Assembly: GCA_020342235.1 (NCBI GenBank)
Contig: CP073217.1
Span: forward strand, 496,001 to 560,000
Origin: Saccharomycopsis phalli
Taxonomy: Eukaryota; Ascomycota; Saccharomycetes; Ascoideales; Saccharomycopsidaceae
Length of the DNA stretch: 64,000 bases
Reading direction: 5' to 3'
The stretch's first letter is position 1. The number at the start of each line of letters is the position of its first letter. Under the pieces are notes generated by a model. That model saw only the letters and a list, made by a program, of their open reading frames with translations, did no database searches and was not told the DNA's origin. A program made the translations under genes and the position numbers. Positions 22,988 to 46,403 of this stretch are shown here, one piece after another.

Positions 22988-23983
22988 ATGAAACCTTTGG
23001 CTATTTTTCACATCCTTTTAGCTATGCTCTTGATGGAGCTTGGCCTTGCGTCTCCAGTCGATGGTACTCTTTTTGCTCGTGACAATTCCATCGACAAATT
23101 GCTCGAATCTGGGGGTATGACAGGTCCAAATGCCCCGGACACAATTCGTTCTCTGAAAGCCCCGGTATATTGTAAAAACGAACGGGAGCAAAGCGTGGCT
23201 CTTGCATACGACTTTCAGCATCAGAACCTGGCGCTCTCCATCCGTGGATTATGGAAGAATCCATACGAAACGACTGCTACCAGTTCAATATTCCTGAAAA
23301 ATCAAAATATTAGGGAATTGTTCCTGGAGAAATCATCTGTGTGGAGTCCTGACTGGTTGACCAAACATTGGGAAAAACCTAACCCAAACACTCCAAACAT
23401 AGAGACTCTCCGCCATGTTGACGATTTCTCGTCCTTGAAATCGGAATGCTACGAGTTCCCGAGCAATCTGTGGGAAAACAATGCAATGTACAAAGCGTTG
23501 GACCAATTAAATGCCAAGGGAGAATTGACACTGGACCAGTCCCAGACATTTACCAATTTGATTGCTCAAGGAAAAATAGACTCGCTTCAAAGAGCAATTG
23601 TCCAAGACTATATTGCAGCCGTTGGAAACTTCTTTATGCGCAAAGAAAAACTTCGTGACCAACTTACATTCAGATTGACGTTTCAATTTGGTAAGATTGT
23701 CAGTCCGGAAATGCTTAAGGACCAGTTGGAATCACTTAGAAATGCGCATGTTATTGGGAGAAAGGTTCCTGGCCCAAATGGTAAGCCCATTTGTCAGATT
23801 GAGAAGGTGTTGTCTCTCTACACACACAGACGTAATGGTCCAATCCTGAATGCTGAAGTTGAACTCATGCCACAATATGCTAAAGAAGTTACAGTGCGAG
23901 TTAATAATGAGTGTGTGGCCAATTTCAACTCCTTGGATGACATTGAGTACTGTTTCCCGGGAAAGCAAGGACAATGCAATTGA
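22988..23983 (+). CDS. Secreted RNase T2-like family protein, copy 1
   Basis: A 331-aa protein with a cleavable signal peptide (hydrophobic core FHILLAMLLMELGLA, likely cut before SPVDG). By-eye alignment with ribonuclease T2 gives LSIRGLWKN for CAS I (HGLWP), HWEKP followed by an insertion and TLRHVDDFSSL...ECY for CAS II (WxHEWxKHGTCxSTL...CY), then QDYIAAV for the DYFxxAv helix, and PICQIEKVLSLY for the core strand. The CAS I histidine is Arg here, so ribonuclease activity is doubtful. Six cysteines (CKNE, ECY, PIC, NEC, YCFP, QCN) could form three disulfides. It is the leftmost copy of the array. Its role is unknown. The 3' flank is shared with the copy at 36617. Confidence 0.75.
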   Translation: MKPLAIFHILLAMLLMELGLASPVDGTLFARDNSIDKLLESGGMTGPNAPDTIRSLKAPVYCKNEREQSVALAYDFQHQNLALSIRGLWKNPYETTATSSIFLKNQNIRELFLEKSSVWSPDWLTKHWEKPNPNTPNIETLRHVDDFSSLKSECYEFPSNLWENNAMYKALDQLNAKGELTLDQSQTFTNLIAQGKIDSLQRAIVQDYIAAVGNFFMRKEKLRDQLTFRLTFQFGKIVSPEMLKDQLESLRNAHVIGRKVPGPNGKPICQIEKVLSLYTHRRNGPILNAEVELMPQYAKEVTVRVNNECVANFNSLDDIEYCFPGKQGQCN

Positions 23984-24890
23984 GGCTTAGTTTAGCAGGC
24001 CTAAGTGAAGCGTGATGCAGCAATAAATATTACCAATAAGATCAATGTGCTCTTTTGGGGTAGAAAAAGGTGTAATTCCTTGGGATACTGTAAACAGTGT
24101 AGATGCAAATGGCACGATAGACCATGTGATGAAAGTAATGACATCATTAACTGGTGGTGGATAGTTGTGTCTCGTACTAGATTCAGCTGTTGAGTCGATT
24201 AAGCTAGATTACTGTGAATCAATCACAGTGTATGTCGCTTGATTATTCGCCTGACCACATATAGAGTCCTTAACTCTAATAAATAAAGCATGTGGCTTGG
24301 TGGTAACCATTTTGAAGCCTGAGCGATTACTCTAATATCTATATGAGCTAGTTCTTAGGGGTTCCCGGGGTCAAAATTGAATTCTTCCTGTAGATTTCTC
24401 GTAGGAATTGGTGCAGAGATAGTCAAGAAAGGTCCTATTACTGGTAATTTTCTGTAATGGTTGCTTAAGCTATACCCTAGACGGCTGTGCCAGTTTTAGT
24501 GCGTAGGCTTTCGCCAAATCAACACTTGTCATTAGTAGCTTATTGCTTTCTGGAGCTCAATTGGGAGTCCCAACTAATATCCGTCAGTATAGCGTTGATG
24601 GCAAATGACATGCTTGATAGAGTTTATTTGTTATTTTCGAGCCTCTGTTGTGTTGACGTTGTTTGGAGGAGATCCTGGAGCCCTGGGAAGTGGTTGAAGG
24701 GTTCTGTGACCCTCGAAATAGTCCCAATGCAGTATTACTGTTACCGAAAACTCTTGATCAGATTGCTTGCCACTTTCAGGGATTAAAAACTTATATTGGA
24801 GTTGTATTTCTGATTCATGTTGCTTAATATGAGTGTCAAGTCTGGATGACTTTGAAGCAAACTTGGCAGTTGATTCACGTGCCGTGTTCT
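23984..24890. repeat. Segmental duplication: 3' flank shared with 37613-38525
   Basis: The flank after copy 1 can be followed, with scattered differences, along the flank after the copy at 36617. The best match is at 24480-24880 with 38130-38510, sharing GGAGATCCTGGAGCCCT and GGGATTAAAAACTTATATTGG. In the right-hand copy this flank continues into recognisable LINE coding sequence, so this piece is probably the 3' end of an older LINE carried along in the duplication. Short open frames here are not convincing genes. Confidence 0.65.
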
Positions 24891-24891
24891 G

Positions 24892-25251
24892 ATAATAATA
24901 TTTATTTTTGTATTTGCTATATATTGTCTCCGGCATTATGGTTATTCGACAAATATATTTTCACTCAGGCACATCTTGAAACAGCATTGCTGTTGAAGTA
25001 AGCCCTTTGTCAGCCCTCTTTCGACTGCTTGGGATTGAAACTTCAATGTGAACGGTTGTATTGGTTTTGTAAGAAGCCTTTTCATTCTTGTTACCAAACT
25101 TGGCCGCTGAATCTCATCATATGGAGGAATCATGTTCCAACACATTTTGGTAAAACTTAATGAGTTTGTAGACTGATTTCTGGTCGGTGCAACGCTTTTT
25201 CAATTATGTTGCGTATGTCATTAGTGGAGTCTAGTATTTCACCAATGCGGG
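24892..25251 (-). mobile_element. 5'-truncated LINE copy (twin of 40738-41120)
   Basis: Minus-strand LINE 3' end with the TAATAATA tail at 24892, the 3' UTR, and the last codons of ORF2 (peptide WNMIPPYDEIQRP). It stops abruptly at about 25251, in the 3' flank of the broken family copy. An identical breakpoint, ACCCGCATTGGTGAAATACT, occurs at 40738 beside another family copy. The two are therefore descendants of one insertion. Confidence 0.85.
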
Positions 25252-25309
25252 TCTTGTTGATAATATTTACTGTCACACCATGCTTCATTTAGCCTTGCTA
25301 AACTAAGCC

Positions 25310-26213
25310 TCAACTGAAATTTCCACGCTTATCAGGGAAACAGTAATTAACGTCATCCATCGACGCGAGATTGCCCATACATTCTCCCTTTGCCAGCTCA
25401 CTAATTTCTGGAGCCGGCCGTAGCTTGAGGGAAAGTTTTTTATCCAGGATTGCACCATTACCCTTGAGACTGTAGAATGCTAATACCTTATCAATCTTGC
25501 AAAGAGGATTGTTGTGTCTGTCCACGGTAGTTTTTCCACTAACATGCGCATTTTTAAAGAGTTTCAACTGGTTCTTAAACTCTTCCTGATTGTAAATCTT
25601 ACCAAAGTCAAATGCCTTGCCAAATTTACCTTGGTTACGAAGGTTTTCTCCTTTCATGAAAAGATTCCCAACTGCTGCGATGTAGTCTTGGGCAATTTCT
25701 CTTTGAAGCGAGTCTGATTCTCCTTGAGCAGTCAATCTGGAAAACTCATCGGACTGTGCTGGTGACAATTGGTGGCTGGTATTTAATCCATATAACACTT
25801 TGTATAATTCGTTATTGTCCCACGTGATTCTCTGGTTATAACATTACAGTCTTAAGGATGAGAAATCATCAATATGGAGGAGAATTTCCTTGGCTGGAGT
25901 GTCCTTGTAAGGATGTTTCCAAAAGCTGGTCAACCAGCGAGTGTTCCAAAGTTGTGTTCCTGGCGAAAACAACAGCTCAAGATTTTCGTCTAACCAAAAT
26001 CTTGAGCTGGTAGTTGTTGTCTCGTATGGATCCTTCCATAATCCGCGGATAAAGAGCTGTTTGTCTTTAGGCAGAATGTTGTATTGCAAGCACCACATCT
26101 CGGATCTGTTCATTTATACAATAATTCGGAGATTCCAAAGACCGATTGGAGACGCAAGGCCAAGCTCCATAAAGAGCATGGCTAAAAGAATGTGAAAAAT
26201 AGCTAAAGTGTTC
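25310..26213 (-). pseudogene. Broken copy of the secreted RNase T2-like family
   Basis: The only minus-strand family member. It retains the signal peptide start (MNTLAIFHILLAMLFMELG), the IRGLWKDPYET block, the LLHIDDFSSL block and the C-terminal half with QDYIAAV, PLCKIDKVLAFY and NYCFPDK. A stretch after the signal peptide is missing and the reading frame is interrupted, about two to three breaks in all, so no full-length product is expected. Upstream DNA resembles that of the copy at 36617, while downstream DNA (with the LINE) resembles that of the copy at 39687. Confidence 0.85.
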
Positions 26214-27100
26214 ATTGATGATTACAAGTGGATGGGTATGATTAATATTTATATTAATTTCATAATGTGCCTTGAATATTATTCATGCCTCATGCCGCTG
26301 CCATTTCAATGCTAATGTCAGATTCATGTATCCACGGCATCTAAAGATTTGCGTCAGAACACCTTAGATGGAAATTTTATTTTTAAACAAAGCGAGGTGA
26401 AATATTAATCAATTTAAATCATGAGTATCATTGGCATAGTACTGCAACCAGAAAATAAATCAAAATTTGTTGTAACATGTGAATATTTGATGCCTCGAGG
26501 TCAAGAACTATTAATGGCACCAATATCAATTCCAGTACAGTCAATTATTAATTATTGGTTATAATAAAATTTTTTATTTAATTTTACGGCTATACTAGGC
26601 TCTGCTGGAGAAGGAAATCGGGATTTCACCTTCTAAAAAAACTAAGCACGGTGCCGCAAAATCGGAGTCGAAAGAAAATCCTTTGAATGGGGATAAAAAC
26701 TTTCGGCTGGATCTTTAAGGAACTGTTGAAGAGAGATGACTTAGAAGGAGCCACAGAGTCTCGCCCCAGAGGGACTACCTGCCCGTCCGCCCTTCCTGTG
26801 ATGGTGTAAAATAAAAAAGGAATCTAATCATCCAGCACTAACGTGTAGTATCCTATAAGCAAATAAACTGATTTTGTGTCTGTGAAGAGGCAGCGAATCT
26901 GCGCTCTAGTTGAGGCCATTACCAATCATTTCCTGTGTGAATACCACTAAACTTAAGTATGATACGTCATGAAATATGGACGGATTTCGCACCTAGAGCA
27001 CTTTGGATTGCAATCCAGATTAAACTGCTAACTAGTTCTTGATATCAAGTTTTTCCATGTAGAAGTTGACTGATGGGGCTACAATTTTCTTTGGACCAGT
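26214..27100. repeat. Upstream flank duplicated, inverted, at 36.0-36.6 kb
   Basis: Reverse-complemented, 26214-26830 follows 36000-36616. It shares the promoter block, the CTCGAGGxCA-containing segment and the GATTTTGCGGCACC/TCCCCATTCAAAGG segment. No gene is supported. The rest, to 27100, is unassigned AT-rich sequence. Confidence 0.65.
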
Positions 27101-28050
27101 CAAGGTCTCAGCTAGTAAGGGTTTATCTTTGGCAGTTGTAACCACTGGTGAATCCGTTCCGTAAAGGGTTCTATAGTGTATTGGAAGAAGTAATATCACC
27201 AGTATCTACTAACTTTTGCCATTCCTTGGTCATCTTCGTCTTTTTTTGGTCTTTAAGGACCTGTTTTTTCCATCCTTACACGGCCAATAACTGGGTGTCC
27301 GTCTTTTCTGATTGGGCTTGGGCTAACACTTCCGCATTGTGATATATGATTGATACAGATTCTGTAAATGATCTTTGATATGGTGCGCTCATATCAAGAA
27401 CTCTCGTATGAGAGGATAGGAGTAGGCGTCTCGGTTTGTGACTCCAAGTACTGGTTGCTAGTTAATGCTTTATTGTAGGGGATTTTGCAGAGTAGTATTA
27501 GCGAATCATCTCATACATGTTCCTATTGCGACTCGTTTTTGAAGTAGTTGGATCGGAAGCATTCCTGCTTGGATGTTGAGGATTCCGGTTAGAGTCGGTT
27601 TCAGCTTTCCAAGTGCGTTACGCAATGAAATGTTGTAACATACTCTGATGGCTTCAATTTGTGTTTTGGTTAACTTATGGTAGAAGATTTTTAGTCCATA
27701 GGTGATGAGAGGTAGCGTACATGTCTTGAACAAGATTAGCGTGGGTTTCCCCCTGGTTCCATTTGTGATACGACTGATAGCCTATATCCGCCCGGTGGAT
27801 CTCTTTAATTAAAGTATCATGTTCCCAATGTGTTGTCAGAAGCTTAATTTCGAGTCTAAGGATATCCCTAGTAGCTTCACTTTTATGGACTCTTCCTTTG
27901 ATTTCCCATATGGAGGATGAAGGATTGAGCCGCTTGATTTCACAAAGAATCTGATATATTGTAGTTTTCCCCCATATTCAAAGTCTGTATAATTTTCTTG
28001 GGCCCACTGGTGGCATATGCTGAGGCTCTTTGAGAGTACCCTTTGAGGTC
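27100..28050 (-). mobile_element. Degenerate LINE fragment (older subfamily)
   Basis: Minus-strand remnants of LINE ORF2 downstream of the catalytic RT core. The piece at 27506-27733 reads FKTCTLPLITYGLKIFYHKLTKTQ, and further pieces (27750-28030) read like the HQWxQEN...YGxKLQYIRF and VKLLGISLDSKLS blocks of the larger LINE at 29884-33775. Frames are interrupted in several places and no tail is visible. Confidence 0.75.
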
Positions 28051-28079
28051 TTAATTATTAGTATAAGAAATTGAAATTC

Positions 28080-28215: not shown

Positions 28216-28565
28216 CATATCAATATTCCTTGGCTTCAAGGCTTCAAAAAATCACATGACACATTGAACAATATTCTAATTATATCCATTCACCGTCTTC
28301 ATTGCCGTAGAGACAATATTCAGAAAATATGGCAATTAGTATTATAGCCCTCTTTACTTGCAATATGTTCAGAATATCCATCCAAAGTATTCCGGAAGAC
28401 GCAAATCTTTAGCTGCCGCTAAAACGTGAATTTAGCATTCGCCTCGAAATGGCACCGGCATGAGGCATGAATAATATTCAAGGCACAATGCCTAGAATAA
28501 AATATTCAAGGCACATTATGGGATTAATATAAATATTAACCATACCCAAACACTTTTCATCGTCA

Positions 28566-29639
28566 ATGAACACTTTAGCTATTTTTCACATTCTTTTAGC
28601 CATGCTCTTTATGGAGCTTGGTCTCGCATCGCCGGTCAATAGTACTCTTTTTGCTCGTGACAATTACATCGACCAATTGCTCGAATCTGGGGGTATGACA
28701 GGCCCAAACGCTCCAGTGGCAATTCGTCCTCTGAACCCTCCGGGTTATTGTAAAAACGAGGAGGTCCGCAAAGCGGTGCTTGCGTACGACTTTCTGAAAG
28801 AAGATCAACAGTTCTTCATTCGTGGATTGTGGGAGAATCCATACGAAACGACTGCTACCAGCTCAAGATTCTTGCCAAATCAAAACATTAGGGAATTGTT
28901 CCTGGAGCAGTCATCTGTGTGGGATGCTCTCTGGATGCGTGAGTTTTGGGAACATCCTAAATCAGACACTCCAGGAAAGGAAATTCTCAGTCATCTTGAC
29001 AATTTCTCAACCTTAAGAGAGGCATGCTATGAGTTTCTGAGCGTTTTGTGGAAAACCAATACAATGTACAACCAGTTGAGCAAATCAAAGGCCAAGGGAG
29101 AATTGACACCTGACCAGTCCAAGGCATTTTCCAAATTGATTGCCCAAGGAAAAAAAGATTCGCTTCAAAGAGCAGCTGCTCAAGACTACATTCTAGCGGT
29201 CCAGAGAGCGTTCATAACTAATGGACAACTTCGTAACCGATTTGACTTGAAGCAGGCGTTTGAATTCGGCCAGGTTTACAGCCGGTCAGACCTTAAGAGT
29301 GCATTCAGAATCTTCCCGTATGCACATGTTATCGGGAAAATCTTTCCTGGGCGAAAGGGCAAGGCTATTTGCGCAATTGATAAGGCACTAATTTCCTACA
29401 GTATCAAAAGTTCCGGCTCGATTCTGCAACACGGAGCACTCCTTCAACTACAAGAAACGCAACCAATTGAGCCGCAATCCAAAGATGAGTGTGTGGCCAA
29501 TATTATGTCATTAGATGAAAAGAAGTATTATTTACCTAACCATAATGGCACTTACACTGACATAGAGTACTGTTTCCGTGACACGAACGGCAATTGCAAA
29601 CAAGTTGGCTTTGACTGGTCTTGGCCTTGGCTGGGCTAA
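28566..29639 (+). CDS. Secreted RNase T2-like family protein, copy 3 (extended C-terminus)
   Basis: A 357-aa family member with the same signal peptide and order of blocks: FIRGLWEN (CAS I-like, Arg for His), FWEHP then ILSHLDNFSTL...ACY (CAS II-like), QDYILAV, AICAIDKALISY. It is the copy whose FWEH tetrad is closest to the T2 FWEHEW motif. It is longer than its paralogues because the C-terminal cysteine segment appears twice: a first version (KKYYLPNHNGTYT) without cysteines and a second (IEYCFRDTNGNC), followed by a Trp-rich tail WSWPWLG. Function unknown; secretion is predicted from the signal peptide only. The promoter carries one extra copy of the 25-29-bp AGGCA/TGCCT unit. Confidence 0.75.
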   Translation: MNTLAIFHILLAMLFMELGLASPVNSTLFARDNYIDQLLESGGMTGPNAPVAIRPLNPPGYCKNEEVRKAVLAYDFLKEDQQFFIRGLWENPYETTATSSRFLPNQNIRELFLEQSSVWDALWMREFWEHPKSDTPGKEILSHLDNFSTLREACYEFLSVLWKTNTMYNQLSKSKAKGELTPDQSKAFSKLIAQGKKDSLQRAAAQDYILAVQRAFITNGQLRNRFDLKQAFEFGQVYSRSDLKSAFRIFPYAHVIGKIFPGRKGKAICAIDKALISYSIKSSGSILQHGALLQLQETQPIEPQSKDECVANIMSLDEKKYYLPNHNGTYTDIEYCFRDTNGNCKQVGFDWSWPWLG

Positions 29640-30316: not shown

Positions 30317-30473
30317 AGGTCGCATTGCTGTTGAAGAAAACCCTTTGCCAACCCTCATTTGGTTGCTTGGGATTAAAAACTTCAATGGAGGCAGTTATAT
30401 TGTTGGCGCTGAGTGCTTGTGTTGTGTAAGAAGCCTGGTCACTCTTGTTGTCGAATGTGACCGCTGAATCTCA

Positions 30474-33424
30474 TCATGTGTTGGAGGAATCATATTCCAA
30501 CACGTTCCGGTAGAATTCAAGGAGTTTGTGGACTGATTTTTGGTCGGCAATCAATTTTCCAAGCGTATTGCGTATGCCATGAGTGGAATCTAGTGTGTCA
30601 TCAATGCGCGATAGAATTCGAGCTTCTAAGATCTCTGGACATCGGAGGTCATGTATGATGGAGGGGGAGTGAATCCCGCATCTTTTGCAGTTTGGGTCAT
30701 CATTGCCAAATAATTTGGGCAACGAACTGTCTGTGAGGCTCTTTCCACTTAGTAGTTGTGATGCCAAACTGAGGATTGCCTTGGGGCCTGCAAGCGCTTC
30801 CGTAAGGAGGAGCTTGGTTTTGTCTCGGTGCACTTTGAACGGTCTGGTGCTGATTTTGCGTGCGTTCCTATAGTGGTTTGGAAGTGATTCACTGGCTGAG
30901 GTGACCATTTCCTGCCACTCTTGCCAAGGACTTGAGTAGGATCGTTGGTGGTGGAATACAACTTTCGATATAGATGATCGGGGTGGACGTGGGTCTGAGG
31001 AGGCCTAGCGCCAGTCATAGGATTGAGTTGAATATCACACTGACCTGACTCCATTGGGTTTTTGTCATGCTGTGATAGAACACCTCGAGTCCATACGATA
31101 TGATGGGGACTGCACACGTTTTAAACAGTATTATCGTGGTACGTCCTGTGGTTCCTCGTGTCATTCGGCGTAAGTACCTTATTTAATCAGCAGTGCGGCG
31201 CATCTTGGACAATGTTTGCCTTAGATGGCTCCTGAGGCTGAGTCTTGAATCAAGGGTAATGCCTAATAACTTGACCTCGTTTGTTTCCTCCTTTCGTCCT
31301 CCGTTCGGAAGTTGGAGGCTGGATTCACAGTTCGGTAACCGTCTTCGATTCGGAAAGAATCGTATGTATTGTAGTTTCGGGCCATAGTCAAAGCTTGTGA
31401 AATTCTCTTGACCCCATTGATGGCATTCCTGTAAGCACTGTTGAAGTGTATGCTCAATGTCGCTACAGGATCCCTTTTTGACAATTGTAATGTCGTCAAT
31501 GAATCCTAGGGCCACTGCTCCTTTCCCTTTGAGTCGGTTGTAGAGGTCGTGGGTGTAGATCATGAAGAGGATTGGAGAAATTGGAGAGCCTTGTGGGACT
31601 CCGAACGTAACGGAGAGGTGCTGATCTGATAACTGTCCATCAATTTTTTAGCTGAGTGCTTTGGTTCTGGAGGAAGTTACTAGTCCAATTGATTATCTCA
31701 GGTGGAGTGCCGACGGCCTGCATCTTTTGTAGTAGGATCAGGTGGCTCATGTTGTTGAAGGCACCTTCAATGTCGACTAGGACTGCTCCGGAATGGTTGG
31801 AGTTGTCTAGTGGCATTTTCTGGTGGTCCTTGAGGTGAGTCTGGGCGTGGAACTTGAGATTATTCACAAAGGTTGTAACCGCATCCGTTGCACAGTACCC
31901 TTTGCGCTCCCCCAAATTGGTAAGATGGAAGTTGGATTTTGGCGACCAATCTTTGAGTCATGATTGACTCGAAGATTTTCCCAAGTATATTGAGTAAGCT
32001 AATTGGTCGAAATGACTTTGGTGTCTCATAATTGGCTTTTCCTGGCTTCGGGATTACTACCGTGATGCTAGTTTTCCACTGTTTGGGAAATGCTCCAAGT
32101 TTGAGGCAGGCGTTGTAGATCAATTCCAACTGGTCAGGGAAGGTTTTCCCATGCCAAAGCTCCCTGATTTGACCAACTTACCGTTGATCAGGACCTGGGG
32201 CTTTTTTGAGCTTTAGGTATCTGATGGTGTTGAATATTTCCTCCTTCGTTATTGGTTCAATGTCGTTCCAATGAGTGTAGTGCGGTTGGAACGAAGCTGA
32301 CGTGAGGCTCTCATTCACGGTGATCTATGGGTAAAAGGTTTTGCCAAAGGCTTTGTGCTGTTCCTCGTACAGCTTCATCATTCTAGGGCATTTTACTGGG
32401 TTTGTGTATCTGTAAGCAGTCCAAATGGTGGTGTGATCCAACTTGAGTAAGAAATCATTCCAGCACCTGGATTTGGCTTTTTGAACAGTTTCCTGAAAGG
32501 CCTTCTGAGCATTGCTTCGTTCTGGATCGTCCATTGCGAGGCTAGTGACGGTTCGATACACTTCTTTGACTTCTTGAGTGAACCACCTTTTTGAACGACT
32601 ATTTACTAGTTTCATCGGGGTGTTTCTGTCAATTAGTTGCCTTAGAGTCTGATTTAACTTGGCGGATGCCCTGTTTAATTCATCCTCTGCGTGGATGGCG
32701 CTTGCGAACCGACGTTTATCTAGTGTTGCACGAACCTTTGACCAGTCCGTTTTAGAGTAGTTATGCATCGTTTTTGGCTTGATCTTGTCCGACATGTCGG
32801 GAGGGCGGAGTGATACACGAAAACCGAATTGCCGAAGCCGAATTGCCGAAGCTTTGGCTGTGGTGTCACTTGTCCTTCCAACTTATCGCTGATTAAGATA
32901 ACATCAAGAGTGTTTCCGTCACGGTGTGTGGGCTGGTCTATGATATTAAGGCACTGAAGTTTCCCCATTTCCATAATGTCATCGATCCTTATTGAAAGTT
33001 TCTTGTTTTTCTATAATGTAGTTTCTCACTAGTTTCAGCGACCGGGACTTGAGGTGGGCTTGGAATCGTGCGGCGCATTGTAGATGTTGATGATGTCTAC
33101 AACTTGCTTTCGTGATTCTAAGGTGATTCCAACACAGTCTCTGTGTTTTAATTCATTGACATACCTTGTGCGGTAGCCATATTGTTGATCTTTAATTTTC
33201 TTGTTAACATATGTCGTGGCCCTAGGTCGGGCCGACTGGTCGTTTACCTCAGGGAGGTAATCATATTTGTCATAGGCGGCATGGTTGCAAGTCTCATTGG
33301 GGTTGTACTGACGCGCAGTTTCCTGGACTAATAATATAACTGCCGAATTCTTGTAATGGTCAAGGACCGCTTCAAGATGCGGTCTTCGTTTCTGGATGTT
33401 GATCGAGATGATTGTTATCTTCAT
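30474..33424 (-). pseudogene. LINE ORF2 (endonuclease-reverse transcriptase), broken
   Basis: Recognisable pieces in order: endonuclease N-terminus at 33424-33035 (ISINIQKRRPHLEAVLDHY ... LLVQET) and its end at 32974-32720 with THRDGNTLDVILISD. The RT pieces include FPKQWKTSITVVIPKPGKAN and FRPISLLNILGKIFE (32129-31860), DIEGAFNN (31915-31640) and the catalytic GFIDDITIV (31563-31183). A C-terminal knuckle C-x2-C-x8-H-x3-C (CKRCGIHSPSIIHDLRC) lies at 30908-30474. About 980 codons if continuous. The pieces lie in different frames with at least five interruptions, so this copy is inactive. Confidence 0.88.
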
Positions 33425-33777
33425 TGTGATCCAACTTGGCTTGAGTCACTGTGGGAAACCATCTGAGTTCGACTTGACCGTAGATTATATCTTGATGTCA
33501 AGTTTTCATCAGTAGCTGGGTAAGTCTCCGCCGTATGGATCACTAGATCTTTTGGGATCTTGGGTTGACTGGAGGGGTCACTCATGGCGTTCGGGTTTCC
33601 CGGTGTGCCGCTTTGTGCGTTGGAAGCAGGAATTATGGAAAATGGTTGGATCGTTTTTGACTTGGAGCCTCGGCTTTTGCGTGGCCGTTGCGGTGACTCT
33701 TTGAGGAGGTCAAGATGAGTCCGTTTCCGGATGAGGACAATCTTTGAATTTCTTTTCTTGTTCAATTGCCATGCCAA
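33421..33777 (-). pseudogene. C-terminal remnant of LINE ORF1
   Basis: A basic, Ser/Pro/Lys-rich frame of up to 118 codons ends in TGA overlapping the ORF2 start as ATGA (bases 33424-33421). Its apparent ATG is formed by host flank, so the natural ORF1 start has been lost with the 5' end of the element. The ATGA overlap suggests that ORF2 is translated by termination-reinitiation; this is inference from the arrangement. Confidence 0.65.
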
Positions 33778-34021
33778 TGATATTCAGAATTTAAATTAAT
33801 TGATATTTCAGTTCCCTTTAACTGAAATATAAAATATCCATCTAGGGATTTCCAACGCAAATCATTAAATGCCGTTGAAACGTGAATCTGACATTAGCCT
33901 CGAAATGGCACCCGCATGAGGCATGAATAATATCCAAGGCACAATGCATACTATAATATATACAAGCCGTATTATGGAATTAATATAAATATCAACCATA
34001 CCGACTCACTTTTCACTATCA

Positions 34022-35014
34022 ATGAATACTTTAGCCATCTTTCACATCCTTTTAGCCATGCTCTTTATGGAGCTTGGTCTAGCAACTCCAGTCGAAAGTA
34101 CACTTTTTGCTCGCGGCAATGACAACGACCAATTGATCCAATCCATTGCCATTAAAGATCCAAATGTTCCGAGCGCAATTCGTTCTCTGAGTTCCCCAGA
34201 ATATTGTCGAAGCGAACAAGAGAAAGACGTGACTCTTGCATACGACTTTGTACCTAAAAGCCAGGGACTCTCCATCCGTGGGTTATGGAAGGATACATAT
34301 GAAAGTACGACCACCAGCAGAAGATTTTTTCCTGATCAAGACATTAGGAAATTATTTCTGAAAGAATCACTGGTGTGGAAAGCTGACTGGTTGAAAAATC
34401 TTTGGGAATATCCTAATAAGAACACCCCAAAAGTACAGACTCTTTTCCATGTTGACGATTTCACGTCCTTGAAGCTGGAATGCTACGACGCGCACACCCC
34501 GTGGAACCAGGTCAAAAATTATAACAAGTTGACACAATTATTTGACGAGAGAAAATTGTCGCCAGCTCAGTCTCAGGAATTTTCCAGATTATCTGCTATT
34601 GGAAAAATTATCTCGCTTGAAAAAGCAATTGTCCAGGACTACTTCACGGCGGTCGGGAACCTCTTCTTTTCCGAAGGAGAACTTCGAGACCAAGCGCTAT
34701 TCAAAGACACATTTCAATTTGGTAAAATATACAGCCCGGCAGAGATTATGTATCAGTTTCAACACTTTTCACATGCTCGTGTCATAGGAAGGGTCATTGC
34801 TGGCAAAAATAATAAGCGTCTTTGTGTGGTTGAAAAGGTATTGGCTTCTTACAAACTCACAGGTAGCAGTCCGATACTGCATGACGGAGTTGGTATCTTT
34901 CCACAACCGAATTCGAGTGGCAGTATGCTAGAAGTTGGTGAATGTATGGCTAAACTGGACTGGGCAGATAACATAGATTTCTGTTTTCCAAAAAAGTCTG
35001 GAAAATGCGGCTGA
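34022..35014 (+). CDS. Secreted RNase T2-like family protein, copy 4
   Basis: A 330-aa family protein. The signal peptide is followed by TPVESTLFARG. Blocks are SIRGLWKD, LWEYP, TLFHVDDFTSL...ECY, QDYFTAVGNLF (closest of the copies to the T2 DYF motif), RLCVVEKVLASY and FCFPKKSGKC. It keeps the six-cysteine pattern. It is more divergent than other copies near residues 36-50 (IQSIAIKDPNVP where others have LESGGMTGPNAP). The LINE at 29884-33775 ends about 245 bp upstream, outside the proximal promoter block, so expression could be preserved. Function unknown. Confidence 0.75.
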   Translation: MNTLAIFHILLAMLFMELGLATPVESTLFARGNDNDQLIQSIAIKDPNVPSAIRSLSSPEYCRSEQEKDVTLAYDFVPKSQGLSIRGLWKDTYESTTTSRRFFPDQDIRKLFLKESLVWKADWLKNLWEYPNKNTPKVQTLFHVDDFTSLKLECYDAHTPWNQVKNYNKLTQLFDERKLSPAQSQEFSRLSAIGKIISLEKAIVQDYFTAVGNLFFSEGELRDQALFKDTFQFGKIYSPAEIMYQFQHFSHARVIGRVIAGKNNKRLCVVEKVLASYKLTGSSPILHDGVGIFPQPNSSGSMLEVGECMAKLDWADNIDFCFPKKSGKCG

Positions 35015-35676: not shown

Positions 35677-36616
35677 AATATCTATCTTCTCTGGAACCCG
35701 ATATAGATATAGTCTTGGATAAATATCAATTAAGACAAATCTCTTTTAATGTGTAGCCTGTGACAATTTAAAATTTGCGTCATTCAGGTCTGACGGCTCA
35801 TAAACCCACTGTGTCCATTTCTGAATGAGTTGAGGTTGAATAACTGAAGAATAAGGGTATACTTGAGGTTCTAATCTTAATGATTAGTCTAGGAGTAGAT
35901 TGAACCTTAACAGAATGACACTGGATTTAACATGAATTGAATAGTTAAAAATAGCTATTAATAAACACGTTCGTGCTAGAATAGCATATCATTTTTTACA
36001 GCATCACAGGAAGGGCAATGCTCTATAGCTCCTTCTAAATCAACATTCTTCAGCCATTTCTTAGAGATCAAGTAGAAAGTTTTAATCCCCATTCAAAGGG
36101 CTTTCTTTCGACTCCGGTTTTGCGGCACCATCTTTATTTATTTTAGAAGGCGAAATCTCAATTTCCTCCTCCAGCAGAGCCTAGTATAGCTGTAAAATTA
36201 AAAATTATAATTATAACTAATAATTAACAATTGACAGTACTGGATTGGATATTAGTGCCAATTAATAGTTTTTGACCTCGAGGCATCACATGCTCACGTG
36301 TTACAACAAACTTTGATTTATTTTCTGGTTGCATTATCATGCCAAAGATACTCATAGTTTAAATTGATTAATATTTACCTCTCTTTATTTGAAATATCAA
36401 ATATCAATCTAGAGTATTCTGGCACAAATTATTAGATGCCGTGGAAGCGTGAATCTGACATTAGCTTCGAAATGGCACGCACATGAGGCATGAATAATAT
36501 CCAAGGCACAATGCCTAGCATAAAATATTCAAGGCACGATGCCTAGCATAAAATATTCAAGGCGTATTATGGGATTAATATAAATATTAATCATACCCAT
36601 CCACTTGTAATCATCA
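35677..36616. repeat. Upstream flank of copy 5, shared with the broken copy
   Basis: Contains the distal block (about 35780-35990), a segment matching 26580-26830 inverted (36000-36200), and the promoter block. Here the promoter unit with AGGCACAATGCCT plus ATAAAATATTC is present twice in tandem (36500-36562), against zero or one in most copies. No gene is supported. Confidence 0.65.
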
Positions 36617-37612
36617 ATGAACACTTTAGCTATTTTTCACATTCTTTTAGCCATGCTCTTTATGGAGCTTGGCCTTGCGTCTCCAGTCGATGGTACTCTT
36701 TTTGCTCGTGACAATTCCATCAACAAATTGCTCGAATCTGGGGGTATGACAGGCCCAAATGCCCCGGACACAATTCGTTCTCCGAGCGCCCCGGAAACTT
36801 GTCAAAAAGAACAGGTCCAAAATGTGGTTCTTGCATACGAGTTTCAGCAAAATAACCGGCAGCTATCTATTATTGGGCTATGGAAAGATTCATATAAAAC
36901 ATCTGCTACCAATTCAGTATTCCTGCCAAATCAAAACATTAGAGAATTGTTCCTGAAACAATCATCTGTGTGGAGTCCTTCCTGGTTGACCAGTCATTGG
37001 CAAAAACCAAACCCAAACACTCCAAACATACAGACTCTCCGCCATGCTGATGATTTCTCTTCCTTGAGGCTGGAATGCTACGAGTTCCCGAGCAATCTGT
37101 GGGAAAACAATGCAATGTACAAAACATTGAGCCGGTTAAATGCCAAGGAAGAATTGACACTGGACCAGTCCAAAGCATTTTTCAATTTGATTGCTCAAGG
37201 AGAAAAAGACTCGCTTCAAAGAGCAATTGCCCAAGACTATATTGCAGCTGTCGGGAACTCTTTTATGCATAATGGAAATCTTCGTGATATCCGGAAATTC
37301 AATGAGGTATTCGCAATTGGCAAGATTTACAGCCAGACTGATTTTAAGAAAGAGTTAAGAATGCTTTCAAATATGCATGTTATTGGGAAAATCATGCCTC
37401 GCCCAGGTGGTAAGAATGTTTGTGTGATTCAGAAGGTGTTGACTTTCTACAGTCACAAAGGTAATGTTGCAATCCTGGATAGAAAACTCTCCCTCAAAAC
37501 CCTCCCAGCTCCAGAACTTGGTGAGCGGGAACAGGGGGAATGTATCGGCAATCTCCAGTCTATGGATAACATTAATTTCTGTTTCCCGAACATGCGTGGG
37601 GATTGTAAATGA
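36617..37612 (+). CDS. Secreted RNase T2-like family protein, copy 5
   Basis: A 331-aa protein closest to copy 1, sharing SSVWSP, WEKP/WQKPNPNTPNI and the CYEFPSNLWENNAMYK segment. CAS I-like block SIIGLWKD has Ile where T2 enzymes have the catalytic His. CAS II-like block is HWQKP ... TLRHADDFSSL ... ECY. Later blocks are QDYIAAV, NVCVIQKVLTFY and FCFPNMRGDCK. The signal peptide and the six cysteines are intact. Shared flanks on both sides with copy 1 indicate duplication of a unit of at least 2 kb. Function unknown. Confidence 0.75.
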   Translation: MNTLAIFHILLAMLFMELGLASPVDGTLFARDNSINKLLESGGMTGPNAPDTIRSPSAPETCQKEQVQNVVLAYEFQQNNRQLSIIGLWKDSYKTSATNSVFLPNQNIRELFLKQSSVWSPSWLTSHWQKPNPNTPNIQTLRHADDFSSLRLECYEFPSNLWENNAMYKTLSRLNAKEELTLDQSKAFFNLIAQGEKDSLQRAIAQDYIAAVGNSFMHNGNLRDIRKFNEVFAIGKIYSQTDFKKELRMLSNMHVIGKIMPRPGGKNVCVIQKVLTFYSHKGNVAILDRKLSLKTLPAPELGEREQGECIGNLQSMDNINFCFPNMRGDCK

Positions 37613-38960: not shown

Positions 38961-39686
38961 AATAGTGTCGCGAAATGAATGTTGAAAGAATTCCCCAAGG
39001 ATAAACGTGCTTGATCTTAAGATTCGAGGAATGATTTAAATCCCATGGTTTTCGTGAGACTGGGGTATCTTTAAATATGGACAGGGCGGTTCATGGAAGA
39101 TTATTCGATTAGATCGTAATTTAAGGTGAATTATGTCCTAATTATGGTCGTCTTGATACTATTTCCATTGGATTGAGTGATTAAATTGGCAATTTTTTAA
39201 GTCCCAGTTATGGTCATTTTTAAAGATAATTATAAAAGGAAGAACTACAGTAATGACAGCTATTCTGTCAAATTTACACATTCAAAGTATAAAGCATTTC
39301 CTTTGGCATTTACTCATAGTCCCAGAATTCATCCATTGCAAGATTTAATATTCTCGCATATTCACGTTTGACGGCTTGCAAACCCAACATGATATTTTCC
39401 AAATAATGCCGCACCTCTAATAAATCAGATGACTGAAAATATCTATCAAAGAACAACTGGCCGTAGTAGAATCGATATTAGTGCAGGGATATCAATATTT
39501 CAGCTTGCTTTATTTGAAATAGAAATATTCATACCTTGTGCTCTGACGCAAATCTTTAGGTGCCGTGGAAACGTGAATCTGACATTAGCCTTGAAATAGC
39601 ACTGGTATTGAGGCATGAAAAATGTCCAAGGCACAATGCCTAAAATAATATAAATTTATATTATATTCACCTACATTTAATCACTG

Positions 39687-40679
39687 ATGAACGCATTAGC
39701 CATATATCACATTCTTTTAGCCATACTCGTTATGGCGATTGGTCTTGCGTCTACAGCTGATGATGCTCTTTTTGCTCGCTACAATACCGTCGAAAAGTTG
39801 CTCAAATCCGGGGGAATGACAGGTCGAAATGCTCCTGAAACAACACGGCTTTTGGACTCACCAGAATATTGTAAAAACGAACAGGTCCCCGACGTGGTGC
39901 TTGCATACAACTTTCTGCCTAAATATCAAAGGCTCTTCATCCGGGGATTATGGAAAGAACCATACGAAACAAATTCCATAAGTTCAAGATTTTTGCCGAA
40001 TCAAGATATCAGTCGATTGTTTCCGCGACAATCACCAGTATGGATCGCTGACTGGATGCTTCATCTCTGGGAATATCCTAAACATGACACTCCAAGCAGG
40101 GAGACTCTCTGCCATGTTGACGAGTTCTCATCCTTGAAACTGGAGTGTTATGACCAGAGTACCATGTGGAAGCAGAACAAATTATATAACAAGTTAGCCA
40201 ATGAAAAGACGAAAGGCAAATTGTCACTAACGGAGTCCCAGGAGTTTTCCAAGTTGATTGCCCAAGGAAAAACTGACTCTCTTCGAAGAGCAGTTGCCCA
40301 AGACTATATTGCAGCGGTTCAGAACCTTTTCTTACAAAATGATAGACTTCGTGACCAAGAGGCATTTGGAAAGGCATTTAAGCTTGGCAAGATTTACAGT
40401 CCTGAAGAGTTTAAGAAACAGTTGAAACTCTTTACGAATGCGCATGTTAGTGGAAAAGCTACCACTGACAAAAATAAGCAGCCTCTTTGTGTGATTGATA
40501 GGGTATTGGCTTTCTACAGTCTCGAGGGTGAAGGTGCAATCATGGATAATGGTTTTTCCCTCAAGACAGGAACGGTTTCAAAAGTTAGTGAGCGAGCACA
40601 AGGAGAATGTATGGGCAGTTTCGCGTCGATGGACCCCATTAATTTCTGTTTCCCAGATGTGTCTGGAGATTGCAAGTGA
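39687..40679 (+). CDS. Secreted RNase T2-like family protein, copy 6
   Basis: A 330-aa protein that gives the clearest T2 alignment: FIRGLWKEP (CAS I-like), LWEYP then TLCHVDEFSSLKLECYD (against KHGTCVSTYDPDCYD in RNase Rh), QDYIAAVQNLF, then GKIYSPEEFKKQL and PLCVIDRVLAFYSLEGEGA (against the xIxC...L.EVxxYFxVxG strands). It has an extra cysteine in TLCH besides the six family cysteines. The signal peptide is slightly different (IYHILLAILVMAIGLAS). Its 3' flank carries a truncated LINE 59 bp after the stop, shared with the broken copy at 25310-26213. Confidence 0.78.
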   Translation: MNALAIYHILLAILVMAIGLASTADDALFARYNTVEKLLKSGGMTGRNAPETTRLLDSPEYCKNEQVPDVVLAYNFLPKYQRLFIRGLWKEPYETNSISSRFLPNQDISRLFPRQSPVWIADWMLHLWEYPKHDTPSRETLCHVDEFSSLKLECYDQSTMWKQNKLYNKLANEKTKGKLSLTESQEFSKLIAQGKTDSLRRAVAQDYIAAVQNLFLQNDRLRDQEAFGKAFKLGKIYSPEEFKKQLKLFTNAHVSGKATTDKNKQPLCVIDRVLAFYSLEGEGAIMDNGFSLKTGTVSKVSERAQGECMGSFASMDPINFCFPDVSGDCK

Positions 40680-41120: not shown

Positions 41121-41261
41121 CACTGTTTTTATAACCATGTTAATGAGGTTCATTTATTATGATAACATCTTAATTTGATAGGGATACAAATAACTGAACA
41201 AGATACAATTAACTGAACGAGATAAAAACTTTCTACTAAACCTAGTGAATATGTAAATGGG

Positions 41262-41511: not shown

Positions 41512-41689
41512 ATGGACATTGGAGGGGCAATGAGCTTTCGCCTAAATCTTTAGAGGTGACTTGAGCCACCCCTCCTAACATGCTGTAGAAAAAAGGAAAC
41601 CACCAGTCCAGCACAAACGAGTAGAATCCTATAAGATTTTAAGCTTCGCCTTATCTGAAGAATAGACTCAGGCTTAATTAGCGTAGGTA

Positions 41690-42545: not shown

Positions 42546-42879
42546 ATGCGTAGTCTATCAAAATTTAAAATGCCGCCGCATACACGTTTGGCGGCTCTGA
42601 ACCCCGCAATTTTTGTTTTCTGAATGACACAGGACTTGTGGTACATTTTATGGCTAAAAATAACCGCCAAAGAACAATTTGCCGTGCTGAAATAGATCTA
42701 GGGTGTTCTGACGCAAATCATTAGATGCCGTTGATCGTGAACCCACATTAGCTTCGACATGGCACCCGCATGAGGCATGAATAATATCCAAGCAAGGCAC
42801 TATGCGTAATATAATATATCCAAGCCGTATTATGGGATTAATATAAATATCAACCATACACATCCACTTGTAATCATCA

Positions 42880-43908
42880 ATGAACACCTTAGCTATTTTT
42901 CATGTCCTTTTAGCCATGCTCTTTATGGAGCTTGGTCTCGCGTCGCCGGTCGATGGTACTCTTGTCACTCGGGACAATTACATCGACCAATTGCTCAAAT
43001 CTGGGGGGATGACAGGCCCAAATGCTCCTGAAATGACTCGGTCAGCGAATTCCCCGGAATATTGTCGAAACGAGGGGGTCCGAGATGTGATTCTTGCGTA
43101 CGACTTTATACGTGCATACCAAGAGTTCAGCATCCGTGGATTATGGACGTCTCCGAAAGAAAAAGATGTTATCAGTAAAAGATTTAAGCCCAATCTGAAC
43201 ATCCGGAATTTGTTCCTGAAACAATCAGAAGTGTGGCAGGCTCACTGGATGAATGATCATTGGGAACATCCTAACCGGGGCACTCCAAGCAGGGAGACTA
43301 TCCTCCATGTTGACGAGTTCACGTCCTTGAAACTGAAATGTTATGACCGGAACATTCCATGGAATCAGAACGAAAACTACAAACAGTTGGTCGAACTAGA
43401 GAGAGGAAAAAAATTGACGGAAAAACAGTCTAAGCTATTTACCGACTTGTTTGAGAAAGGACAATCCAACTCGCTTCAAAGAGCAGTTTCCCAAGACTAT
43501 ATTGCAGCAGTCGAAAACTTTTTTATAAAGGATTACAGGCTTCGTGACCAAGATACGTTTAAAAACACATTTAAATTTGGCAAAATTTTAACTCCGAAAC
43601 GGCTTCAACAACAGTTGCAAAGCTTTCCACATGTGCATGTTAGTGGGAAAATTACCGAGAAAGATATCGACAGCAAAACTAAGATTCGTATTTGTAATAT
43701 TAATAAGGTATTGGCTTTCTACAGTCTCAAGGGTAAAGGTGCAATCATGGATGATAGTCTTTCCCTCGAGCAAGGAACAGTTTCACAAGTTAGTGAGCGG
43801 GCAGAGGGAGAATGTATGGGCAATCTCGAGTTGATGGACTCCATTTATTTCTGTTTCCCAGATGAGTCTGGAGAATGCAATATAAAAGAATTAATCAGGC
43901 CTAAATGA
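42880..43908 (+). CDS. Secreted RNase T2-like family protein, copy 7
   Basis: A 342-aa family member. Blocks: SIRGLWTS, HWEHP, TILHVDEFTSL...KCY, QDYIAAVENFF, RICNINKVLAFYSLKGKGA, YFCFPDESGEC. It differs from others by a longer loop before the fifth-strand block (KITEKDIDSKTKIRICNI) and a 12-residue charged tail after the last cysteine. The signal peptide is intact; the propeptide-like segment reads SPVDGTLVTRDNYIDQ. The promoter block is close to those of 34022 and 45300 (CCAAGCCGTATTATGGGATT). Function unknown. Confidence 0.75.
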   Translation: MNTLAIFHVLLAMLFMELGLASPVDGTLVTRDNYIDQLLKSGGMTGPNAPEMTRSANSPEYCRNEGVRDVILAYDFIRAYQEFSIRGLWTSPKEKDVISKRFKPNLNIRNLFLKQSEVWQAHWMNDHWEHPNRGTPSRETILHVDEFTSLKLKCYDRNIPWNQNENYKQLVELERGKKLTEKQSKLFTDLFEKGQSNSLQRAVSQDYIAAVENFFIKDYRLRDQDTFKNTFKFGKILTPKRLQQQLQSFPHVHVSGKITEKDIDSKTKIRICNINKVLAFYSLKGKGAIMDDSLSLEQGTVSQVSERAEGECMGNLELMDSIYFCFPDESGECNIKELIRPK

Positions 43909-44032
43909 AGCGTGGGCTGGTAGTAAATATTATAAAGAATACCAATCTAATTTTTGTGGTTTAAAAAGTTGTAGGACTAATTTTTTGGGATACTCTGAGT
44001 ATTTGGATGCAATCTATTTATAATAATTATAA

Positions 44033-44840
44033 TAATATTTATTTTTGTACTTGGCTATATATTGTCTCCGGAATCACGGTTATTCGACGAATATATTTTC
44101 ACTCAGGAACATCCTGAGGCAGCATTCTGTTAAATAAAGCCCTTTGTAACCCCTAATCTGTTATATGGACTGAAAAACTTCAATGGGACCAGTGTTGTTA
44201 GTGGTTTAACGTGACTGGTTATTGGTTATCCGAGAAGCTTGGTCATCTCTTGGCTTATGCAATTTGGGCCGCTGAATCTGGTGACGATGAACGCAAGACT
44301 CGCCGGGATCTATCATTGCTTGTTTTTGAGGTTATTTAGTATTGCTTTTCCGGGATTTTGTATTGCTCTTTCAGCAGACTTTCGTATATCAGGGTAGTTG
44401 GTGGGGCTTGAATCCGGACACTACCCCATGGTGTTCCCCATAAGGCATGTGATGTTCTCTGGTCAGCCATACTGCTACCCAGTTATTCTGTTTAACTATC
44501 TTATTTGTTCAGCAGTGCGGTGCATCTTCGACAATGTCAGCTTGAGATATCTCCTGAAGCTAAGCCTTGAATCAAGGGCAATGCTCAATAACTTGACTTC
44601 ATTTGTTTCCTCCTTTCGCCCTTGTTCCGGCAGTTGGAAGCTAAGTTCACATTTCGGTAATCTTCTGCGATTCGGGAAGAATCGAATGTACTGGAGTTTC
44701 GGTCCATAGTAAAAACTTGTGCAATTCTCTTGACCCCATTGGTGGCATTCTTTTAAGCATTGTTAAAACGTGTGCTCAACGTCTTTACTATTGCTTATTT
44801 TGATGGTCATAATGACATCAATGAAGTCTAAGGCCGCGGC
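44033..44840 (-). mobile_element. Internally deleted LINE copy
   Basis: The left end has the (TAA) tail and the 3' UTR (44033-44180). 44480-44840 follows 31180-31510 of the main LINE, including sequence for the RT region around the HQWGQEN and KLQYIRF blocks. The C-terminal ORF2 part between is largely missing or unrecognisable. It starts 125 bp after the stop of copy 7. Confidence 0.8.
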
Positions 44841-45299
44841 CCCGTATACACATTTGAAGGCTCAGAACCCCATAATGTTCTTTTCTAGGTGACACAGGAC
44901 TTGTAATACATTTGAGGGCTGAAAATAACTATCAAAGAACAATTTGCCGTTTAGGATTAGATCATGGCACATCAAAATATTTCTTGACCGTAAGCTGTCA
45001 AATGACCACAGTTTACGTCGATCTTTGATTGTTTTCTGGTTCCATTATTAAGCCAATGATATTCAGAATTTATCTTAATTGGGATTTCAGCTCTCTTTAC
45101 TTAAGCATAAAATATCCATCCAGGGTATTCTAACGCAAATCATTACATACCGTAGAAACGTGAATCTGGCATTAGCTTCAAAATGGCACCCGCATGAGGC
45201 ATGAATAATATCCAAGGCACTATGCCTAATATAATATATCCAAGCCGTATTATGGGATTAATAGAAATATCAACCATACCCATCTACTTGTAATCATCA

Positions 45300-46310
45300 A
45301 TGAATACTTTAACTATTTTTCATGTCCTTTTAGCCATGCTCTTTATGGAGCTTGGTCTTGCATCTCCAGTCAAAAGTACTCTTGTCGATCAGGATAATAA
45401 CATTGACAGTTTGCTCAAATCCCGGGGAATGATAGGTCGAAATGCTCCAGGTACAATTAGGCTTTTGGAGGCACCAGAATATTGTAAAAATGAGCAGGTC
45501 CGTAATGTGGTTCTTGCATACGACTTTCTGCCTAAAGATCAACAGCTCTCTATCCGTGGGTTATGGAAGAATCCATACGAAACAAATGTTATCAGTACAA
45601 GATTTATTCCTAATCAAAACATTAAGCAATTATTCTTGCGAGAATCACCAGTGTGGATCGCTGACTGGATGTTAGACCATTGGGAATATCCGTATCAAGA
45701 AACCCCAAAAAAGCAGACTCTTTTCCATGTTGACGATTTCACGTCCTTGAAGCTGGAATGCTACGACCAGAACATTTCATGGGATCAGAACGAAGACTAC
45801 AAACAGTTGGCCCAATTTAGGGATAGGGGCAAATTGTCGACAGTACAATCACAGGAGTTTTCTAAATTGATTACGAAAGGAAAAACTGATTCGCTTCGAA
45901 GAGCAGCTGCCCAAGACTACATTGCAGCAGTTCACAACCTATTCATGCATAAAGAGTTGTTTCGTAATAAAGAAAAGCTTCATAATAAAGGGAAATTTGA
46001 ACGAGCATTTAAACTTGGTAAGATCTACAGTCAGGAAAAGTTTAAGGCTCGGTTGAATGTCTTTCCAAATGCGCATGTTATTGGGAAAATTTCCACGGAC
46101 AAAGACAACAAGCCTCTTTGCAAGATTGATAAGGTGTTGGCTCTTTACAGCCTCAAAAAAACTGGGCCAATCATGAGAAATGAACTCACTCTTGTGAGTC
46201 GGCCAGTGTCAGAAGTTAGTGAGTGGGTAAAGGAGGAATGTATGGGCAATCTCGAGTCGATGGATGACGTTAATTACTGTTTCCCTGATAAGCGTGGAAA
46301 TTGCAGTTGA
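45300..46310 (+). CDS. Secreted RNase T2-like family protein, copy 8
   Basis: A 336-aa protein, last of the array. Blocks: SIRGLWKN, HWEYP, TLFHVDDFTSL...ECY, QDYIAAVHNLF, PLCKIDKVLALYSLKK, NYCFPDKRGNCS. A short in-frame direct repeat (FRNKEKLHNKGKFERAF, where others have RDQxxFxxAF) accounts for its extra residues. The segment after the signal peptide (SPVKSTLVDQDN) lacks the LFAR tetrad of most copies. Its C-terminal end is nearly the same as that of the broken copy. Function unknown. Confidence 0.75.
   Translation: MNTLTIFHVLLAMLFMELGLASPVKSTLVDQDNNIDSLLKSRGMIGRNAPGTIRLLEAPEYCKNEQVRNVVLAYDFLPKDQQLSIRGLWKNPYETNVISTRFIPNQNIKQLFLRESPVWIADWMLDHWEYPYQETPKKQTLFHVDDFTSLKLECYDQNISWDQNEDYKQLAQFRDRGKLSTVQSQEFSKLITKGKTDSLRRAAAQDYIAAVHNLFMHKELFRNKEKLHNKGKFERAFKLGKIYSQEKFKARLNVFPNAHVIGKISTDKDNKPLCKIDKVLALYSLKKTGPIMRNELTLVSRPVSEVSEWVKEECMGNLESMDDVNYCFPDKRGNCS

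Positions 46311-46402: not shown

Positions 46403-46403
<1 letters not shown>

Follow-up and report, generated by a model that had tools for sequence, protein, structure and literature searches.

RNase scaffolds stripped of catalysis already serve as effectors in plant-pathogenic fungi. The RALPH effectors of powdery mildews are many secreted ribonuclease (RNase)-like proteins that form the largest set of effector candidates there, and one studied RALPH has been proposed to be an RNA-binding pseudoenzyme (PMC6464244). For the RNase T2 fold, a catalytically dead form of yeast Rny1 (H87F/H160F) still inhibits yeast growth (PMC3400635). Saccharomycopsis schoenii preys on fungi, reads CTG as serine and is without the genes of sulfate assimilation, and the Saccharomycopsis species examined were predatory with sulfate assimilation missing (PMC6508603). 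Here we describe an array of RNase T2-like genes in a 64,000-nucleotide stretch of the Saccharomycopsis phalli genome (the window; contig CP073217.1 of GCA_020342235.1, positions 496,001 to 560,000). Our reading, offered tentatively and with somewhat less than an even chance of being right, is that the window holds one cluster of a T2-derived, mostly non-catalytic, effector-like secreted family.

The array consists of seven intact family open reading frames (ORFs) on the plus strand, gene 1 at 22988..23983 (331 amino acids), gene 2 at 28566..29639 (357), gene 3 at 34022..35014 (330), gene 4 at 36617..37612 (331), gene 5 at 39687..40679 (330), gene 6 at 42880..43908 (342) and gene 7 at 45300..46310 (336), together with one broken copy on the minus strand at approximately 25316..26215. 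This inventory, including the starts and ends of the ORFs, is that of an earlier sequence-only reading of the same DNA. The seven proteins (330–357 amino acids) can be aligned over their full length after a conserved hydrophobic leader, with 50–65% identity to the gene 1 protein and 41–64% identity between mature parts over all 21 pairs. The same reading had described a GLW block at the position of CAS I of RNase T2, with the catalytic histidine replaced by arginine in six intact copies and isoleucine in one, and a block H-x-D-[DEN]-F-[ST]-[ST]-L..CY at the position of CAS II. Both descriptions were borne out: the CAS I-like block reads I-R-G-L-W in genes 1, 2, 3, 5, 6 and 7 and I-I-G-L-W in gene 4, and the CAS II-like block is found in 7/7 genes. 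In gene 5 the IRGLW block lies at 39939..39953 on the plus strand (residues 85–89, with R86 at the position of the T2 histidine), and the CAS II-like block at 40113..40151 on the same strand (H143 to Y155), which lacks the G, T and Cys of KHGTC. At CAS II the window genes have the histidine in 7/7, the glutamate in 4/7 and the lysine in 0/7, and the CAS I histidine is found in 0/7; judged by this loss of residues, 'pseudoenzyme' appears to be the right word for them. The broken copy, read in one frame, still presents the leader, I-R-G-L-W and the CAS II-like block with its histidine; its first stop lies between the leader and CAS I and its second just 5' of CY, and it has approximately 29 codons fewer than gene 5 between the leader and CAS I.

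The gene 5 protein gave 64 matches in the 14.15 Mb assembly of eight contigs, a lower bound as are all match counts in the genome reported here, and these merge by position into 60 gene loci on seven of the eight contigs (C1–C7). As the architecture recurs in these matches, the pattern in the window is beyond chance. The window array, with eight loci, is the largest cluster, followed by C6:141772-184337 with six, and the family locus closest to any contig end is 73 kb away from it. Searches with the distant members L050 (61 matches) and L054 (57 matches) produced no new loci by position. The family as a whole spans approximately 60 loci and not eight. ATG-to-stop ORFs of at least 150 amino acids were collected from the fetched loci, and 57 of them represent the 60 loci, some broken loci giving no ORF and some giving two; 48 of the 57 were aligned after omission of fragments and of the divergent L054, and 17 of the 57 form a smaller alignment. 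A tree was built on 54 of 60 rows (51 family members and three T2 proteins of the genome, all of at least 260 amino acids). With the T2 proteins as outgroup, 14 rows form a clade, here clade B, with support of 100/100, and the window genes fall outside it in a 21-row clade with support of 97/99. L054 (252–1766) is a lone, very divergent member of 504 amino acids with an N-terminal extension and the full H/E/K/H set, and its position in the tree is unsure.

On sequence comparison it is near certain that the family descends from RNase T2. Annotation from single sequences or close profiles (Pfam, NCBIfam, PDB, protein database) yielded nothing useful, tblastn against plasmid records gave no match, and a match to PF00445 above the Pfam gathering score was found for 0/7 window genes, 0/17 rows of the smaller alignment and 0/6 family rows in another scan; the three T2 genes of the genome, scanned as a control, do match PF00445. 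These control genes, L034, L035 and L036, are ordinary members of the RNase T2 family located elsewhere in the genome, and L034 also carries PF25488, an RNase T2-like C-terminal domain. The best Pfam match other than T2 was DUF3879 in L057, at 0.0036 and under its cut-off. Profiles of diverse members behave differently. A profile of all 57 ORFs, run among 150 ORFs of the fetched loci, ranked the three T2 proteins ahead of every other non-family ORF (1.2e-6, 2.2e-5 and 0.0036; the next at 0.53), and the 17-member profile, with no T2 protein included, retrieved RNase Rh (2.8e-4) and Actibind (7.7e-4 and 9.1e-4) from 177,635 PDB sequences, the first match after the T2 chains being a P450 at an E-value of 1.1. 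The 48-member profile retrieved Actibind entries only (0.0022 and 0.0024) and lost RNase Rh. When the 48 members were aligned with 53 T2 proteins by hhalign, the probability was 96.7 with an E-value of 3.9e-10 and a score of 80.3 over 174 columns, compared with a score of 17.3 against reversed T2 and at most 24.2 over 20 column shuffles; the 17 rows against the three T2 proteins of the genome gave a probability of 94.8 and an E-value of 5.2e-8. The assignment to T2, made by eye in the sequence-only reading, thus finds support in the PDB profile searches and in hhalign against reversed and shuffled controls. Profile comparison finds T2 with diverse members and not with the seven window genes alone: their HMMER profile placed the T2 genes at E-values of 1.4–1.8, below two unrelated ORFs, and hhalign gave probabilities of only 7.2 and 10.0.

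The alternative that the likeness to T2 is a matter of chance, in an orphan family with two similar short motifs, draws on these low values for the window sequences, on the fact that no member alone matches PF00445 and on a HMMER match to T2 structures that spans only approximately 76–100 profile positions. Against it stand the profile and hhalign matches, which exceed the reversed and shuffled controls, and the joint retention and joint loss of disulfide cysteines described below; we rejected it on the hhalign controls and consider it very improbable. In the hhalign register the QDY segment falls on the T2 helix after CAS II and the Y-S segment on the next helix, and relative to T2 there is an insert of approximately 40 residues between CAS II and QDY. 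In a joint alignment with T2 proteins the QDY helix fell elsewhere than in the profile alignments, and no model was based on it. AlphaFold2 with the seven window sequences gave a predicted local distance difference test (pLDDT) score of 63.5 and a predicted template modelling (pTM) score of 0.55. Without the leader and translated with code 12 (model md0b42675e430, gene 5 residues 50–330) these rose to 68.4 and 0.64, with a poor CAS II region, and the predicted order is strand, strand (IRGLW), helices, long helix, helix, helix, strand, strand, which we take to be the order of elements in T2.

Six cysteines are present in 47 or 48 of the 48 aligned rows. Cysteines 1 and 2 of the family align to C19 and C120 of RNase Rh in the PDB profile alignment, which we take to be a disulfide pair; a second pair, as we understand it, is C63–C112, formed by the Cys of WPDxC and the Cys of KHGTC. 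The KHGTC Cys is present in the three T2 genes of the genome and absent in all 55 family rows with letters at that place, and a Cys after GLW is found in none of the 17 rows of the smaller alignment except C142 of gene 5, beside H143, and as a common column in none of the 48 rows. That paired cysteines are jointly kept and jointly lost supports the register of the alignment. Catalytic residues divide the family. The CAS I histidine is present in 13/14 rows of clade B, in 2/39 of the larger, derived set of rows that includes the window genes, and in L054 (1/1), for a total of 16/54, and the CAS II histidine in 13/14, 27/40 and 1/1 respectively, for a total of 41/55. Two earlier descriptions are accordingly confined to the window: the CAS II histidine, said to be kept in every copy, is kept in the seven genes and the broken copy and not genome-wide, and 'uniformly altered' applies to the window genes, none of which has the CAS I histidine, and not to the family. 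The full H+E+K+H set is found in six of the 14 clade B rows and in L054, and the catalytic set is complete in the three T2 genes. In the derived rows the CAS I histidine is replaced by R (16 rows), K (six), Q (five) and also by N, S, E, D, I and L, and 13/39 have lost both histidines. By their residues, enzyme-like and disarmed members coexist in this family. The clade with the catalytic histidine pair may cut RNA, and the larger set is very probably non-catalytic, since the CAS I histidine is mostly lost; RNA cleavage by the derived rows would be very improbable.

Diversifying selection acts in parts of the family and is not demonstrated for the seven window genes. Ratios of nonsynonymous to synonymous substitution rates (dN/dS) were estimated by pairwise codon maximum likelihood with code 12 over the mature part, and a pair was taken as supported when twice the log-likelihood difference against a ratio of 1 exceeded 3.84. 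The 16 close family pairs were chosen by hand and overlap in part (the trio L047/L048/L049, and L053 twice), and among their members L025 is broken in the leader and L046 starts late. Six of the 16, recent duplicates outside the window, are supported above 1: the three pairs of the trio (3.41, 2.53 and 2.19), L052/L053 (2.64), L041/L027 (2.04) and L015/L025, the last with one member broken in the leader (1.79). Twice the log-likelihood difference is 5.6 to 19.0 for these six and 8.65–19.04 without L015/L025. Nei-Gojobori counts point in the same direction as maximum likelihood, with Fisher p-values of 0.0025 for L047/L048, 0.062 for L047/L049, 0.027 for L052/L053 and 0.27 for L015/L025. Over nine close pairs, differing positions make up 13.6% of the leader, 18.5–20.8% of the CAS blocks and 27.8–35.4% of the other parts.

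Several family genes share a palindrome in their promoters. The pattern AGGCANNNTGCCT occurs 17 times in the genome compared with six times for the pattern read backwards, and seven family genes account for eight of the 17 occurrences, located 45–100 bp upstream of the ATG; for six of these eight the distance is 71–72 bp. In the window, AGGCACAATGCCT lies at 28481..28493, 72 bp upstream of the ATG of gene 2, and at 39629..39641, 45 bp upstream of that of gene 5; AGGCACAATGCCT and AGGCACGATGCCT lie together at 36504..36544, 100 and 72 bp upstream of gene 4; and AGGCACTATGCCT lies at 45215..45227, 72 bp upstream of gene 7. Genes 3 and 6 have the palindrome with one mismatch at the same distance of 72 bp (33937..33949 and 42795..42807 respectively), and none was found at that place upstream of gene 1. 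The heptamer AAGGCAC occurs 32 times in 14.6 kb of upstream DNA and 35 times in 266.8 kb of other fetched DNA, an enrichment that is weak evidence because the promoters are homologous.

The hydrophobic leader, the copy number, the kept cysteines, the loss of catalysis in most members and the diversifying selection in some fit an effector-like role against a changing target, and the predatory habit of related yeasts points to other fungi as the targets. We propose that a lineage-specific family would have arisen from an RNase T2 gene, acquired the insert that follows CAS II, given up one of the T2 disulfides and multiplied across the genome. Its proteins would be secreted, probably so in view of the leader, and would act as ligands on changing targets, most likely in contact with other fungi, whether prey or competitors, as an effector-like arsenal on the T2 scaffold; window members would act by binding, to RNA, ribosomes, or cell-surface or actin-type targets, and not by cleavage. 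A number of observations weigh against this proposal. Two of the 16 hand-picked pairs are supported below 1 and eight are without support either way, and the 21 window pairs have dN/dS of 0.40–1.02, with 0/21 supported above 1 and 13/21 supported below. The T2 pair used for comparison gave 0.03 but, being saturated (t 11.4), is of little use as a standard, and the aspartic protease genes of this genome also evolve fast, with dN/dS of 0.30–1.39 and 0/15 pairs supported above 1 (six genes, L070–L075, one a fragment). The leader was judged by eye, and predation by the source yeast is suggested by its kinship. The promoter palindrome may be the site of a regulator or may merely reflect common descent, and it is the latter that counts here. 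Finally, killing by predator yeasts may not depend on secreted killer toxins (PMC11392346).

Other roles can be imagined for such a family. One possibility is nutritional, with an extracellular set of RNA-binding or RNA-cutting proteins that would salvage RNA or phosphate from plant matter or from prey that has died, and copies without the histidines binding RNA for active ones. Clade B, with both histidines in 13/14 rows and the full set in 6/14, would suit this, as would its basic character (median isoelectric point of 9.1 over 13 rows; 6.6–9.0 in the window genes), but scavenging does not explain dN/dS of 2–3.4 in some pairs or the loss of both histidines in a third of the derived rows (13/39), and three intact T2 genes exist in any case; we consider it unlikely. 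A little less probable still is recognition within the species, in which variable secreted proteins would act as self/non-self ligands by an S-RNase-like logic. The T2 scaffold, the many divergent copies, both clustered and dispersed, and the diversifying selection in some of them are what this would predict. However, S-RNases depend on their activity whereas the window genes are each without a catalytic residue, and the copies are paralogues over seven contigs and not alleles of a single locus.

The family might alternatively be defensive, its members acting as decoys or competitors that mask RNA or ribosomes and so guard the producer against RNA viruses or killer toxins that target RNA. Anticodon-nuclease toxins, which are plasmid-borne in other yeasts, would be threats of this kind. 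A precedent exists in Blumeria, where a pseudoenzyme role in the protection of host rRNA was proposed for the RALPH CSEP0064 (PMC6464244). However, rRNA and tRNA reside in the cytosol and the leader would carry the protein away from there, and a Pfam scan of ten neighbouring ORFs found no known toxin or immunity protein among them. We hold this explanation to be improbable, and equally so the idea that the family has a structural or storage role at the cell surface and simply reuses the T2 fold under weak constraint. Plants do have T2-like storage proteins that are inactive, and dN/dS of the window pairs would be compatible with such a role, but weak constraint accords neither with the pairs well above 1 nor with six cysteines retained in 47–48 of 48 rows.

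The window, at approximately 44% GC, contains several repeats near the array. A degenerate non-long-terminal-repeat retrotransposon lies on the minus strand at 30360–33440, where a reverse transcriptase- and endonuclease-like reading was judged by eye in broken ORFs, and a 300-bp piece of it is repeated at 44482–44781. Dispersed repeats at 24892–24998 (approximately 107 bp) and 22361–22599 (approximately 239 bp) stand beside family genes at many loci and also elsewhere in the genome, with 293 and 135 candidates genome-wide respectively and placements taken from the best 40 and 41. A 1.3-kb segment at 26623–27899 has 79% identity to L026:1426-2730, which adjoins another family copy, and a long TAA microsatellite (46401–46551) follows directly after gene 7.

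The host very probably reads CTG as serine, judging from two comparisons. When the window's SLH1 gene is aligned with S. cerevisiae Slh1, its CTG codons lie mostly opposite polar residues; by eye, in the first half of the protein, they stand opposite Ser four times (positions 450, 453, 849 and 883), Ile once and Leu once. In the family alignment, Leu occupies 8.5% of the other cells in CTG columns compared with 29.3% in TTG columns. Translation therefore used table 12, and few residues change with the choice between serine and leucine (77 and 152 in gene 5), none of them in a motif discussed here. A search of the genome for ATP sulfurylase gave no match, and one 305-amino-acid ORF resembles PAPS reductase and is possibly an FAD synthase. 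Aspartic proteases gave 45 genome matches; an association of family clusters with them was considered and rejected, as four of 32 clusters lie beside one compared with 2.9 expected (p 0.32). The nearest named proteins to one of the true T2 enzymes of the genome are from Saccharomycopsis crataegensis (60–61%), and the closest of all is at 70%. S. schoenii differs in having six nuclear chromosomes (PMC13148404) and a GC content of 33.84% (PMC6508603), compared with the eight contigs of this assembly and approximately 44% GC in the window, and is an unlikely source of this DNA.

Neither the window profile (4522 candidates) nor the 17-row profile (7999 scored) found a homologue among 5.8 billion proteins, which is no proof of absence, as the search needs shared five-residue words and may omit records near the genome of the window; that database does contain T2 proteins from S. 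crataegensis and Ascoidea rubescens. No published account of such a family was found in the open-access literature. The expansions listed for S. schoenii, in the available parts of the two reports, do not name such a family (PMC13148404; PMC6508603), and one unspecified cluster of seven extracellular proteins is mentioned (PMC13148404). In the same species the functional analyses were based on 4,660 genes and did not include 263 putative genes that had no homologues, of which 261 were transcribed (PMC6508603). A family of this kind would land in that homologue-less set, which points to a blind spot of annotation.

Compared with RNase T2 itself (RNase Rh, Actibind, yeast Rny1), the family shares the order of blocks, the CAS I strand, part of CAS II (E and H) and the late strands. 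It differs from T2 in the insert after CAS II, in extra C-terminal Cys, in the lack of a Pfam match in the members scanned and in the loss of the KHGTC Cys and its partner, and the window genes are also without the CAS I His and the CAS II Lys. S-RNases and other plant T2 RNases likewise combine a T2 scaffold with diversifying selection and positively selected sites (PMC9762611). The secreted aspartic proteases expanded in Saccharomycopsis are, like this family, a large secreted family of a predatory yeast (PMC13148404; PMC6508603); those proteases are recognised as enzymes by Pfam, whereas the T2-derived family, with 60 loci the more numerous here, is missed in the scanned members. The plant T2 RNases with positively selected sites are active enzymes, and S-RNases are allelic. 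With the RALPH effectors the family shares expansion, loss of catalytic residues and secretion, the last deduced here from the leader. The studied RALPH resembles T1 RNases and acts in plants (PMC6464244), and the PDB profile matches of the present family, at the level of sequence, include T2 structures and no T1 structure; it is built on a T2 scaffold, retains the catalytic set in some members and is produced by a yeast. A bolder view, which we regard as possible if rather doubtful, is that a predatory yeast carries an arsenal of approximately 60 effectors on the T2 scaffold, parts of which are under diversifying selection. It would comprise one enzymatic clade and a more numerous disarmed set, would have stayed hidden from single-sequence annotation and would be the equivalent, in antagonism between fungi, of the RNase-like effectors that powdery mildews use. 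Were this so, the family would supply effector-like candidates for predator yeasts and an independent example, built on another RNase fold and in a yeast of a predatory lineage, suggesting that the route from RNase to effector is a general one. As this genome retains members with a complete, a partial and no catalytic set, the path from enzyme to pseudoenzyme should be traceable within it.

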